In this document: in pieces, positions 34,648-38,786 of the stretch
How the letters are laid out: every line of letters starts with the position of its first letter
Position numbering within the stretch: position 1 is the first letter of the stretch
Source of the DNA: Candidatus Aphodovivens excrementavium
Lineage (GTDB): Bacteria; Actinomycetota; Coriobacteriia; Coriobacteriales; Eggerthellaceae
Reading direction: 5' to 3'
DNA: 64,000 nt
NCBI GenBank assembly: GCA_018715935.1
Contig: DVKR01000033.1
Location: 1 to 64,000, forward strand
Made by a program: the position numbers and the translations under genes
Notes under the pieces: generated by a model
Told to the model about the DNA's origin: nothing
Database searches by the model: none
Seen by the model: only the letters and a program-made list of their open reading frames with translations

Positions 34648-34679
34648 AAAAAAGTACCGGACAATCTGCCATTGTCCGG
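34648..34679 (-). terminator. Rho-independent terminator of the hydrogenase operon
   Basis: 9-bp perfect stem (34657-34665 with 34671-34679, CCGGACAAT) and a 5-base loop; on the minus strand it is followed by TACTTTTTTC. Confidence 0.9.
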
Positions 34680-34745
34680 CACCTTGCATGGTGGGTTATC
34701 GCCCGGGCGTTACGCCAGGCTCCAACGTAAACCTCAGCGCACGCC

Positions 34746-36035
34746 TTAGTGCACGCTGCAGCTTAGGCACGGGTCGTAGGCGCGCACGAGCTTCTCTACC
34801 TCCAAGCGAATCTCGTCTTCGCCCGCACCCTCGGCAACCAGCTTCTCGGCGAGCACGCGCATATCGGCTTCCAGATTCGCCACGTTTTGCGCGGTTGGCG
34901 TGATGATGGAGGCGTGGAGCACCCTCCCCTGCTCGTCGAGCTCCAGCTGATGGAACAGCGCGCCGCGCGGAGCCTCCGTGAAGCCGACCCCAACCCCTGC
35001 GGCAACCTCGAAGGGCGCCGGAGCGCTGGACCCTTCGAACTCGTCGTTTGCCAAACGGCGGCACAGCGCCGCACAGCGCTCCAGCGCATCCACCAGCTCG
35101 ACCGCCTGGGCGACGTTGTTCTGGAAGGGGTTGCGCTCGGGGGGACGCAGCCCCACCTTCGCCGCTGCAAGCTTCGCTTCGCGCCCCAAGAACTGCCACG
35201 ATTGGTTGATGCGCGCCAAAGCGCCCGTGAAATAGGGCTTCTGCGTGGTGCGCACGCGGGCGAACAGCGCAGCGGAATGCGCGACGCCGTACTCCTCGAT
35301 GGCGCGCTCCACCTCATCGCAGTCGAACGAAAGCGCCGCGTCGATAAACCGCGCCATGCGGGAGTCGGAGACGGCGTAGCGGTCGGGCGCGCCCATCGCC
35401 AGCATGTCGCCGGCGGTCTGAATGCTGGGAGCTTTGAACGAGTGGAACAGATCGACCGCATGCACGGCAAACTCCACGCTCGCCTCAAGCTTGTCGGCCA
35501 GCTGGAGGTATTCCTCACGGCCAATCTCGTGGGTGAAGCCGCCCACAACCGCCGTGATGGGATGAACAGAACGCCCGCCGACCTTGGTGCACAGCTCGTT
35601 GCCAAGCGCCTTCAGCTCCAAAGCGCGGTCGAAAAGCTCCGGCGACTGATCGGCAAGGGGGAACACGCTTTTGTGTCCCAGGAAGTCGGGCGCGGCGAAC
35701 ACGAACAGGTGCGTTGCGTGATTCTGCAGATACGACCCATAGACCAACAGGTCGCGCAGGGCGCGCGTGCGGTCGGAGACCTGAACGCCGAAAATGCGCT
35801 CGATGGCCAAAAGATCGGTTACCACATGGCTTGCCGAGCAGATGCCGCAGATGCGCGAGGCGATGTAGGGCACCTCGTCAAAGCGCCGGCCGCGAACCAT
35901 GCTTTCGAACAGGCGCGCAGGCTCGACGACGTTCATCTCGACCGTCTTGACCTCGTTATCCTCAATGACCACGCGCACGTTGCCATGGCCCTCGATGCGG
36001 GCGATGTGATCTACTTGAATCGCGGTTTTCGTCAT
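34746..36035 (-). CDS. hydA: [NiFe] hydrogenase group 3b, large (alpha) subunit
   Basis: Carries the NiFe active site of a cytosolic NAD(P)-linked hydrogenase. 429 residues. Nickel ligands: Cys63/Cys66 in RICGICSASH and Cys423/Cys426 in DPCLSCSVH. The protein ends exactly at His429, so the usual C-terminal peptide removed by an endopeptidase is missing. A 12-bp imperfect duplication spans the stop (AGCGTGCACTAA then GGCGTGCGCTGA). Start MTKTAIQ has GAGG 8 bases upstream; an in-frame Met 7 codons earlier overlaps hydD. Last gene of hydBGDA. Confidence 0.93.
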   Translation of the reverse strand: MTKTAIQVDHIARIEGHGNVRVVIEDNEVKTVEMNVVEPARLFESMVRGRRFDEVPYIASRICGICSASHVVTDLLAIERIFGVQVSDRTRALRDLLVYGSYLQNHATHLFVFAAPDFLGHKSVFPLADQSPELFDRALELKALGNELCTKVGGRSVHPITAVVGGFTHEIGREEYLQLADKLEASVEFAVHAVDLFHSFKAPSIQTAGDMLAMGAPDRYAVSDSRMARFIDAALSFDCDEVERAIEEYGVAHSAALFARVRTTQKPYFTGALARINQSWQFLGREAKLAAAKVGLRPPERNPFQNNVAQAVELVDALERCAALCRRLANDEFEGSSAPAPFEVAAGVGVGFTEAPRGALFHQLELDEQGRVLHASIITPTAQNVANLEADMRVLAEKLVAEGAGEDEIRLEVEKLVRAYDPCLSCSVH

Positions 36036-36048
36036 GCGATCATCCTCA

Positions 36049-36831
36049 CTAGGCATCCCGCAGCGCGGGGTCTGTCTGGTTGAACATCTCAAGAGCCTTG
36101 TCGAAGCGCTCCACCGCCACGCCCGCCGTCTTGCACGCTTCGCGCGCGGCGGGCAGGTTCGCGTCGGGGGAAAGCCCCGCACAGCCGTTGCAGGGACGCC
36201 CCAGGTTCACGCACCGGGCACCGCAGCCCGCGCGCGTCACCAGGCCAAGGCACATTACGCCCTGTTGGTAGAAACAGCCGGTTTCGTTTCGCTTGCACGA
36301 GCCGCACAGGGTGGCGGTGCTGATGGTTTTGTTGGAGCCGTAGAGCGCGCGCTGCAGCACGTCGATGAAGTCGTAGCTGTCGATAGGGCAGCAGCGCACC
36401 TCGAAATCAACCGGAACCACCGAGCCCACCGACCGCGGGGAGATCATCTCGCCGCACGCGTCGGGCACGTCCTCATACACGCTTACCGGACGCTCGATGA
36501 AGTCTTCGGCGGCCATGCCGGGAATGCCCGCCGTTGTGGCGCACGCGCCAATCGCAATGAGCACAGAGGCCTTCTTGCGCAGCTCGAGCACGGTGCGCTC
36601 GGATTCCTCGGTGGTAACCGCCCCTTCGATTACCGCAACGTCGAAGCTCTCCGGCATCGGATCGCTGGAAGCGAGCTGCCAGTATTTCAAGTCTATCTGC
36701 CCCAGCACGTCCATCAGGTGCGCTTCGGCGTTGGTGATCTGCAGCTGGCAGCCAAAGCAGCTGGCCAGGCCCACCACGACAACGCGCAAAGCGTCGGAGC
36801 GATCTTGGATGGCGTTAGATTGTGTGTTCAT
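36049..36831 (-). CDS. hydD: [NiFe] hydrogenase group 3b, small (delta) subunit
   Basis: 260 residues. Holds the iron-sulfur clusters that pass electrons from the NiFe site; Cys-rich: LASCFGCQ near the N-terminus, GACATT, RCCPIDSYDF and a C-terminal set (LCGSCKRNETGCFYQQG, CGARCVNLGRPCNGC). Matches the small subunit of the oxidoreductase family used by group 3 hydrogenases. Start MNTQSNAI follows GGATGGAGCG. 16 bp after hydG. Confidence 0.92.
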   Translation of the reverse strand: MNTQSNAIQDRSDALRVVVVGLASCFGCQLQITNAEAHLMDVLGQIDLKYWQLASSDPMPESFDVAVIEGAVTTEESERTVLELRKKASVLIAIGACATTAGIPGMAAEDFIERPVSVYEDVPDACGEMISPRSVGSVVPVDFEVRCCPIDSYDFIDVLQRALYGSNKTISTATLCGSCKRNETGCFYQQGVMCLGLVTRAGCGARCVNLGRPCNGCAGLSPDANLPAAREACKTAGVAVERFDKALEMFNQTDPALRDA

Positions 36832-36847
36832 GGTATCGCGCTCCATC

Positions 36848-37759
36848 CTACATCGATCCCTGAATGTTCTTGGCTTCCCAGTAGTTGAACACCGGGCCGT
36901 CGATGCACACGTACTGGTGGCCAATCTGGCAATGGCCGCACTTGCCCATGCCGCACTTCATATGGCGCTCGAAGCTGCAGTAGATGTGGTCGTAGTCGAT
37001 GCCCTTCTTGCTCATCTCGTCGATGACGAACCGGTACATCACCGGCGGGCCGCACACCGCGCCAAACGTATTGCCCGGATCGATCTCCAACTGGGCGAAC
37101 GGCACGGTGACCACGCCCACTTCCCCATCCCACGTGGGGTCGGGATGGTCTACCGTCAAATGCAGCTCGAAGTCTTTGCGGTGCTTCCACATCTCGAACT
37201 GGTTACGGAACATCACCTCCGATGGCGAGCGCGAGCCGTAGATAATGGTGACCTTGCCGAAGTCGCTGCGCTCGTCGTGAATGTTGTTGATGAGCGAGCG
37301 CAAAGGCGCGATGCCAAGGCCTCCCGCCACAAGCAGGATGTCGTGCCCGCGCATGTCGTCGATGGGAAAGCCCCTTCCAAACGGGCCGCGGATGCCCACG
37401 ATGTCGCCGCACTGCATCTTGTGAAGCGCCTCGGTGAACGTTCCCGCGCGGCGGATGCAAAGCTCGATAAAGCCCTGCTTGGTAGGCGAGCTCGAAATGG
37501 AGATGGGGGCCTCGCCCACACCGAACAGAGACAGCTCGACGAATTGACCGGGCTGGTGGTGAAACGCCTCGCGAATGCGGTCGTCAACCAGGCGGAACTC
37601 GAACAGCTTCTCGTGCTCGGTGAGGTCGGTGATGGAGGTAATGCGCGCCGGCCAGGGGCGATAGGGGTTCGCCGCCATCAGCTGGGCGCCGCTCCTGCGC
37701 TCGGGCGACTCCTCGAACGGACGGACCCTCACCGTGGAAACCGCACAGCTACTGGGCAT
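36848..37759 (-). CDS. hydG: hydrogenase gamma subunit, FAD/NAD(P)-binding
   Basis: 303 residues. Diaphorase module: FAD-binding beta-barrel (about 30-125), NAD(P)-binding domain with LLVAGGLGIAPLRSL and AVCGPPVMYRFV, and a C-terminal [2Fe-2S] site CGMGKCGHCQIG...VC. Resembles dihydroorotate dehydrogenase electron-transfer subunits and sulfhydrogenase gamma. Not the radical SAM HydG of [FeFe] maturation. Overlaps hydB by 11 bases. Confidence 0.93.
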   Translation of the reverse strand: MPSSCAVSTVRVRPFEESPERRSGAQLMAANPYRPWPARITSITDLTEHEKLFEFRLVDDRIREAFHHQPGQFVELSLFGVGEAPISISSSPTKQGFIELCIRRAGTFTEALHKMQCGDIVGIRGPFGRGFPIDDMRGHDILLVAGGLGIAPLRSLINNIHDERSDFGKVTIIYGSRSPSEVMFRNQFEMWKHRKDFELHLTVDHPDPTWDGEVGVVTVPFAQLEIDPGNTFGAVCGPPVMYRFVIDEMSKKGIDYDHIYCSFERHMKCGMGKCGHCQIGHQYVCIDGPVFNYWEAKNIQGSM

Positions 37760-38786
37760 CGGCGGCCCCCTTCCTCTCGAAGAACTTCAGCACCTCGATG
37801 GGGTTGATGTTGGCCTTGCACGCCTTCACGCAGCGTCCGCACCCAACGCACAGCATGCGGTCGTGCGTGGCCAAAAACCCGTTGAGCTTGTGATACATGC
37901 GATGACGCACGCGCGTTGCCGCATCGGAACGGAAGTTGTGCCCGCCTGCAACCTCGGCAAACTGAGGCGCCGTGCAGGCGTCCCACACCCGCTCGCGCCT
38001 CCCGGTCTTTCCGTCGGGCTCCAGGGTGTCGCGAATGTCGAAGCAAAAGCAGGTGGGGCACACCGACGAACAGGCCGTGCAGGAAAGGCATTTGCTGCCG
38101 AACTCGTCCCAGAATGAATCCTCGTGGAAGGCGTCCATCAGCATGGCGACTTCCTGGATCTTGGGAATGTCGGGGTTGAACGCCGCCTGGCGCTTGCGCG
38201 TGGCGTGACGGAACTCAACGCGCTCCTCGTCGGTAGCCTCGCGCGGGTTGCAGGCCGACTCCAGGATGTTTGCGGCCTCGACGCTGGAAATGCTTACCAG
38301 GTACTTCCCGCCGATGTCCTGAAGGAACAAATCGTAGCCGAAGCGCGCCTCGTCCGAGCTCCACAGATGGCAGAAGCACGTCTCGGTGGGCATGCAGCTG
38401 ATGCCCACTATCAAAGTGGCGGCGCGACGCGCCTGGTAGTAGGGGTCGGGGTAGCGCCCGTCTTTGAACACGACGTCAAGGCGGTTGAGCGCGTTGATGT
38501 CGCAGGCGTGGGCGCCGAAGATGACGCGCGGCGTGATCTCGGCGGTGAAGTCGGTCACCTGGTTTTCGCGCGAATCGAACGTCATCAGGGTTTCCTTCGG
38601 CGGAAGGAAGTACTTCTTGGGAGAGGTTATCGTGCGATCGTAGTTGAGCTCGATTTGATCGGGAGAGGTGATGACGTCGAAGGCGTACACTTTGCCTTTT
38701 CTCACCGGCGCCACTACCTCGTAGGCCTCCATGAACGCCGACACCAACGCCGGCACTTCGGAGGCTTCAATAACTCGGTACAGCAT
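37749..38786 (-). CDS. hydB: hydrogenase beta subunit, two [4Fe-4S] clusters
   Basis: 345 residues. Sulfhydrogenase beta-type protein with two ferredoxin-like motifs in the C-terminal half: CLSCTACSSVCPTC and CVGCGRCVKACKANINP. N-terminal half includes VIFGAHACDINALNRLD. Relays electrons between the diaphorase subunit and the small subunit. First gene of the hydB-G-D-A order known from Pyrococcus sulfhydrogenases (group 3b). Ribosome binding site is weak. Confidence 0.93.
   Translation of the reverse strand: MLYRVIEASEVPALVSAFMEAYEVVAPVRKGKVYAFDVITSPDQIELNYDRTITSPKKYFLPPKETLMTFDSRENQVTDFTAEITPRVIFGAHACDINALNRLDVVFKDGRYPDPYYQARRAATLIVGISCMPTETCFCHLWSSDEARFGYDLFLQDIGGKYLVSISSVEAANILESACNPREATDEERVEFRHATRKRQAAFNPDIPKIQEVAMLMDAFHEDSFWDEFGSKCLSCTACSSVCPTCFCFDIRDTLEPDGKTGRRERVWDACTAPQFAEVAGGHNFRSDAATRVRHRMYHKLNGFLATHDRMLCVGCGRCVKACKANINPIEVLKFFERKGAADAQ

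Follow-up and report, generated by a model that had tools for sequence, protein, structure and literature searches.

A predicted group 3b [NiFe]-hydrogenase of Coriobacteriia encoded at its mature length, without a C-terminal maturation tail

The window analysed here, 64,000 nucleotides of contig DVKR01000033.1 from Candidatus Aphodovivens excrementavium (Eggerthellaceae; assembly GCA_018715935.1), carries a hydB-hydG-hydD-hydA operon on its minus strand, placed between ndk and mreB (Table 1). The four products match the sulfhydrogenase beta, gamma, delta and alpha models and the expected Pfam domains (E values of 1e-80 and 5e-77 for HydA against the NCBIfam sulfhydrogenase alpha families), with all four scores lying below the NCBIfam equivalog cut-offs. 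Between the hydA stop and mreB we found no protease gene. The terminator-like hairpin beyond hydA is weak when taken alone, as three such sites were found against 5.3 expected in a shuffle test.

Table 1 Features of the hydrogenase locus, in positions of the window
Feature	Position	Strand	Basis or remark
Terminator-like hairpin and T run, about 60 bp past the hydA stop	34651..34685	-	15-pair stem
TAA stop immediately 3' of His429 of hydA	34746..34748	-	Position kept in 105/105 lineage members
hydA, large (catalytic) subunit	34746..36035	-	429 aa; translation, NCBIfam, nearest solved chains
Second nickel-ligand motif, DPCLSCSVH, the last nine residues of hydA	34749..34775	-	Sequence
hydD, small subunit	36049..36924	-	Sulfhydrogenase delta, Oxidored_q6; coordinates as called mechanically; the true start lies further inside the ORF
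hydG, FAD/NAD(P)-binding subunit	36848..37759	-	NCBIfam/Pfam matches
hydB, 4Fe-4S subunit	37749..38786	-	NCBIfam/Pfam matches

The 3' end of hydA reads ...RAYDPCLSCSVH on the minus strand (...VRAYDPCLSCSVH), followed by the TAA at 34748-34746, three codons for GVR and a TGA. HydA is encoded at exactly mature length, with His429 as its last residue and zero C-terminal extension; the initial annotation's description of an end at DPCLSCSVH without a maturation peptide can be read directly off the strand. The 12-bp duplication over the stop that it also described did not hold up: AGCGTGCACTAA and GGCGTGCGCTGA are identical at only 9 of 12 positions, and the window holds 179 adjacent 12 + 12 pairs at least as alike. 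Because the bases at this site are unrelated in the closest relatives (87% identity), where the stop position is unchanged, the repeat neither made nor shifted the hydA stop, and it is a chance match.

A single scan of 84,980 species genomes returned 56 loci with hydA relatives (50-87% identity), all from Coriobacteriia or from records with no label finer than Actinomycetota; in each of the 56, the stop codon comes straight after S[SA]VH. Whole-genome searches brought the set, hereafter lineage A, to 105 distinct sequences including that of the window (45-100% identity). Every one of them ends at the same His without a tail, on TAG (54), TAA (33) or TGA (18), and the sequences beyond the stop are unrelated among members. 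The tail-less end extends through Eggerthellaceae and into many of the deeper families of Coriobacteriia, Gordonibacter and Eggerthella sinensis being among its carriers; a search of IMG/VR found no members. Since the end is shared by all 105 genes while stop codon and 3' sequence vary, the missing peptide is, as judged from these comparisons, an old and fixed trait of lineage A and not a recent one. In one record, from Raoultibacter timonensis (L020, 8001-9287), the hydA open frame scores 338 bits, half of its relatives' score, and tblastn gives a full-length alignment, so the record may contain a frameshift.

Selection on the gene points the same way. Against two 87% identical genes, dN/dS of hydA is 0.084/0.96 and 0.097/0.72 (about 0.09-0.13), and the last 12 codons differ from those of the 87% relatives at 3-4 codons with no amino-acid change, which argues for strong purifying selection. 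C63 and C66 (RxCGxC), C423 and C426 (DPCxxC) and H429 are invariant in 24 aligned lineage members, as is R357, and the relatives retain the hydBGDA order, with the small, FAD and FeS subunits adjoining hydA. A recent truncation in the window strain, in which a mutation at the stop removed the tail and left a dead or decaying enzyme, could draw on the imperfect 9/12 repeat that spans the stop, but the end shared by 105 of 105 relatives on different stop codons, a dN/dS of about 0.1 and the operon kept intact in relatives make it exceedingly improbable. Thus, of the two options that the initial annotation had left, recent removal of the peptide falls to the lineage-wide tail-less end and the purifying selection, and maturation without proteolysis is supported; nor do close relatives carry a normal extension, as it had allowed, all 105 members ending at the same His. 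Equally hard to credit is a tail made by programmed stop readthrough or frameshift. The three codons (GVR) between two stops in the window would suit such a device, but TAG, TAA and TGA are all in use across lineage A, and the frames past the stop share no common peptide even between 87% identical genes.

By sequence, the solved chains nearest to HydA are T. kodakarensis HyhL and P. furiosus SHI alpha, and the fold nearest to its AlphaFold model (mean pLDDT 89) is mature P. furiosus SHI alpha (TM 0.90). Because residues 425-429 are modelled with low confidence, the model confirms the fold and is silent on closure of the C-terminus. In our tree, HydA groups with known group 3b large subunits and apart from the 3c-like rows; together with the four-gene operon and both Cys-pair motifs, this identifies hydBGDA as a predicted group 3b-type cytoplasmic NAD(P)-linked [NiFe]-hydrogenase. 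Its sequence, its fold and the operon agree in assigning it to 3b rather than to groups 2b, 2d, 4c, 4e or 4g, and the hallmarks of a proteolytically matured hydrogenase, an extension and a neighbouring cognate HycI-family protease, are absent. NADP(H)-coupled turnover of H2 is predicted from the encoded FAD/NAD-binding subunit. The sub-cut-off scores of all four subunits might instead mark a conserved protein that is no longer a hydrogenase and has taken another redox job, for which cofactor and proofreading would be unneeded. This is quite unlikely, given that the four Cys ligands are invariant, as are R357 and the terminal His, that the nearest fold is a mature hydrogenase subunit, and that the small, FAD and FeS subunits are kept beside hydA in relatives.

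Most [NiFe]-hydrogenases carry a short C-terminal tail that is removed by a dedicated protease in the last assembly step. The canonical group 3b enzymes that we sampled conform: those of other Actinomycetota and of proteobacterial plasmids are tailed, mostly by 7-10 aa, the sample outside Actinomycetota consisting of plasmid records and solved archaeal chains. Coriobacteriia themselves hold a second 3b lineage (36-39% identity, motif DPCISCSTH), in which a conserved 8-aa tail, [YH][LV]DV[ET]F[VKL][RG], is present in 12 of 12 tail-bearing members with C-termini read and the distance from the hydA end to the start of a PF01750 protease gene is at most about 0.3 kb in 14 of 14 genomes searched. 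Taking only distinct group 3b genes that have 0.7 kb of flank or more, a same-strand HycI-type protease gene lies directly downstream of 53 of 67 tail-bearing genes vs 0 of 105 tail-less ones (98 of lineage A, with L020 added, and 7 others). With lineage A left out, the counts are 53 of 67 and 0 of 7 (Fisher p 6e-5); these sequences are non-independent, hence the need for a tree. As 14 tail-bearing 3b genes also have no neighbouring protease, a missing neighbour does not amount to a protease missing from the cell.

Several further features of the two Coriobacteriia lineages were seen in passing. In a class sample of 300 genomes, with at most five candidates scored per genome, they never occur together (the second in 17 genomes, the first in none of these), as would be expected if one excluded or replaced the other. 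Lineage A occupies a fixed site, ppi-TPR-ndk-hydBGDA-mreB. In one genome (G044, L106), this same ndk-mreB site is taken by an operon of the other 3b lineage that has neither tail nor protease, and another (G148, L100) has a tail-bearing other-lineage operon with its protease adjoining ndk; set against loci L006-L061, this looks like operon replacement in place. Across 3b C-termini, Val before the terminal His (SVH/AVH) pairs with tails of 0, 4 or 7 aa, and Thr or Ala there mostly pairs with tails of 7-10 aa.

Mapped on the group 3b tree, tail state changes six times, or five times in the tree without three long rows. A single tail-less clade was rejected by a constrained-tree test (p-AU 1.8e-38). 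The tail-less branches are lineage A (DPCLSCSVH-stop in the window), family f42 (G345, G387, G426, G407 and G485; CFSCSVH-stop), genus g23 of Eggerthellaceae (G191 and G268; CISCSTH-stop), G044 (CISCSTH-stop), G518, and G579, which lies near a contig end. In all five tail-less branches with enough flank, the neighbouring protease is absent. At the 21% rate at which tail-bearing genes lack one, five of five would have a probability of 4e-4, a rough figure that assumes independence; a phylogenetic independent-pairs test yielded 3-5 pairs, too few to reach 0.05. On the tree, then, the tail appears to have been lost in 5-6 separate group 3b branches, jointly with the protease gene in several of them. 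The sister of the tail-less f42 branch is a 3b large subunit whose tail has four residues (SVH-IVKT; L298, G603:C91:19105-20352), a possible intermediate in tail loss; its genome (G603, 92% complete) has HypD and gave no HycI match.

We then considered maturation genes genome-wide. PF00374 alone splits 3b subunits and overlooks divergent group 4 enzymes, so protein BLAST and explicit C-termini were used. In the genome of the window (2.08 Mb, 99% complete), HypF, HypC, HypD and HypA are all found, as the initial annotation had thought worth checking. An endopeptidase specific to HydA, which it had also raised, is not seen: the sole HycI-family gene is of the HyaD/HybD type and adjoins, on another contig, a tail-bearing group 1 large subunit ending in ACAVHITEPATGKSFETVTSPWGVK. 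Among Coriobacteriia outside Eggerthellaceae, 14 of 14 genomes with a tail-bearing 3b enzyme have at least two HycI genes, one of them beside 3b. The 40 lineage A genomes outside Eggerthellaceae have none (5), one (32) or two (3), and in the three two-copy genomes the extra gene adjoins a second group 1 enzyme. In lineage A, each well-assembled genome examined holds HycI for another hydrogenase. The extra HycI of G268 adjoins a tailed group 4 enzyme that resembles HycE. Two lineage A genomes lack HycI (G018 and G114) but, being drafts, carry no weight here, and the first was dropped as a case of HydA without HycI since HypD is also missing, indicating an assembly gap; in G199, HydA is apparently the sole large subunit, accompanied by an orphan HycI. 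G407 of f42 (a 98% complete draft) makes the strongest case: the tail-less 3b subunit is the only PF00374 gene and HypD is present, with no HycI match at E up to 1; the picture in the draft G387 is similar, the large-subunit counts of both being subject to PF00374 possibly missing divergent group 4 enzymes.

These counts bear on a further explanation, in which HydA is not cleaved and the HycI of the group 1 enzyme nevertheless engages it, either chaperoning HydA or checking its nickel. In Salmonella, one maturation protease binds a large subunit devoid of the peptide, a function other than cleavage has been proposed (PMC7654741), and most lineage A genomes have one HycI. Every HycI examined is, however, accounted for by another, tailed hydrogenase, and G407 keeps its tail-less 3b subunit and HypD with no HycI, albeit in another tail-less lineage. 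We regard this explanation as unlikely.

Other large subunits with unusual ends turned up in the same genomes. A NuoD/FpoD-like subunit of 363 aa (G000:C37:9718-10809, L062) ends in DPCISCTER with no extension, and a 648-aa group 1-like subunit (L334 4913-6859, G044:C3) ends tail-less in FDPCIACAVH. Group 1 large subunits of deeper Coriobacteriia have an in-frame TGA, one each, where the last motif has its first Cys (DP-TGA-xxCxxH; L205-L208, L211, L212, L215-L220, L222-L224 and L226, also G345, G426, G518, G528 and G340), a pattern that resembles selenocysteine [NiFeSe] hydrogenases. Their Eggerthellaceae counterparts (G000, G191, G268) have Cys, and both kinds are tailed.

Taken together, it is very probable that HydA is translated at its mature length and matured by Hyp proteins without proteolysis, tail and protease having been lost jointly. 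Fe(CN)2CO and Ni would be inserted by the general Hyp proteins into a precursor that no tail holds open, and the C-terminal Cys-x-x-Cys-Ser-Val-His segment (Cys423/Cys426, His429) would close over the site unaided; the endopeptidase step would be absent because HydA has nothing to cleave. In lineage A, the tail and the protease gene were probably lost together before the sampled Coriobacteriia diverged, with the same joint loss in several other group 3b branches. Because this loss recurs, the two would act in group 3b as a removable proofreading module. We also think it likely, with somewhat more reserve, that this module is dispensable and that its two parts disappeared jointly on five or more occasions within Actinomycetota, one of them at the root of the old Coriobacteriia lineage that holds a fixed position between ndk and mreB, so that nickel loading and site closure proceed without proteolytic proofreading, in some genomes without any maturation protease. 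That the enzyme is active, that it pairs with its predicted electron partner and that the tail serves as a proofreading device are inferred.

That tail-less hydrogenases exist in other groups is already known. As far as could be checked, the group 3b case and the repeated joint loss of tail and protease are new: group 3b is absent from the lists of tail-less exceptions in reviews (PMC7294309, PMC12134894, PMC7654741), and we found no report of a tail-less group 3b enzyme in the open-licence literature, an earlier remark, e.g. in the HydDB source paper of 2015-16, being possible. The reason that a disposable tail with its own protease is needed in most [NiFe]-hydrogenases is still debated, since some enzymes are killed by tail removal and others are not. 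Within group 3b there are natural pairs of sisters that differ in having tail plus protease (G044, G191 and G268 vs tail-bearing genes of the same well-supported clade), and the tail requirement could therefore be mapped to residues. A tail-less 3b enzyme might also be made in another host without a species-specific protease, which P. furiosus SHI needs to have supplied. For the family Eggerthellaceae, steroid 21-dehydroxylation that depends on H2 has been reported, as has formation of H2 by E. lenta with 'unconfirmed hydrogenases' (PMC11835702); involvement of an enzyme of the window type in this metabolism is only a suggestion.

The closest known systems are P. furiosus SHI (PF0891-0894) and T. 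kodakarensis HyhL, which share the four-subunit layout, give the best sequence and fold matches, and finish on DPCxSCSVH once mature; in the deposited mature chain from P. furiosus (9e15_B), the last residue is the His aligned with His429 of the window. Theirs are translated with four extra residues (-VVRL in P. furiosus), whereas the window HydA has none, and no neighbouring protease. The best studied 3b enzyme, P. furiosus SHI, is inactive when unprocessed and requires removal of VVRL by FrxA (PMC2865534), and E. coli Hyd-2 and R. eutropha SH were left without the cofactor when the tail was deleted genetically (PMC7294309); the requirement in these three enzymes counts against maturation of HydA without proteolysis. 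The 3b operons of Burkholderia savannae, Paraburkholderia and Rhodococcus plasmids have the same subunit order and a large subunit 36-39% identical, but a 9-aa tail and an annotated maturation protease gene that overlaps the hydA end. Groups 2b and 2d (H2 sensors), 4c (CODH-linked), 4e (Ech) and 4g resemble HydA in having no encoded extension; they are naturally tail-less and matured without proteolysis (PMC7294309, PMC12134894, PMC7654741), with the usual Hyp proteins thought to mature them (PMC7294309, PMC12134894), whereas the window enzyme is of the soluble, NAD(P)-linked group 3b type. R. eutropha MBH engineered without the HoxG tail is active with a lower yield (PMC7294309) and reaches the same tail-less end state, but as a laboratory construct of group 1d, where the state in the window is natural and old.
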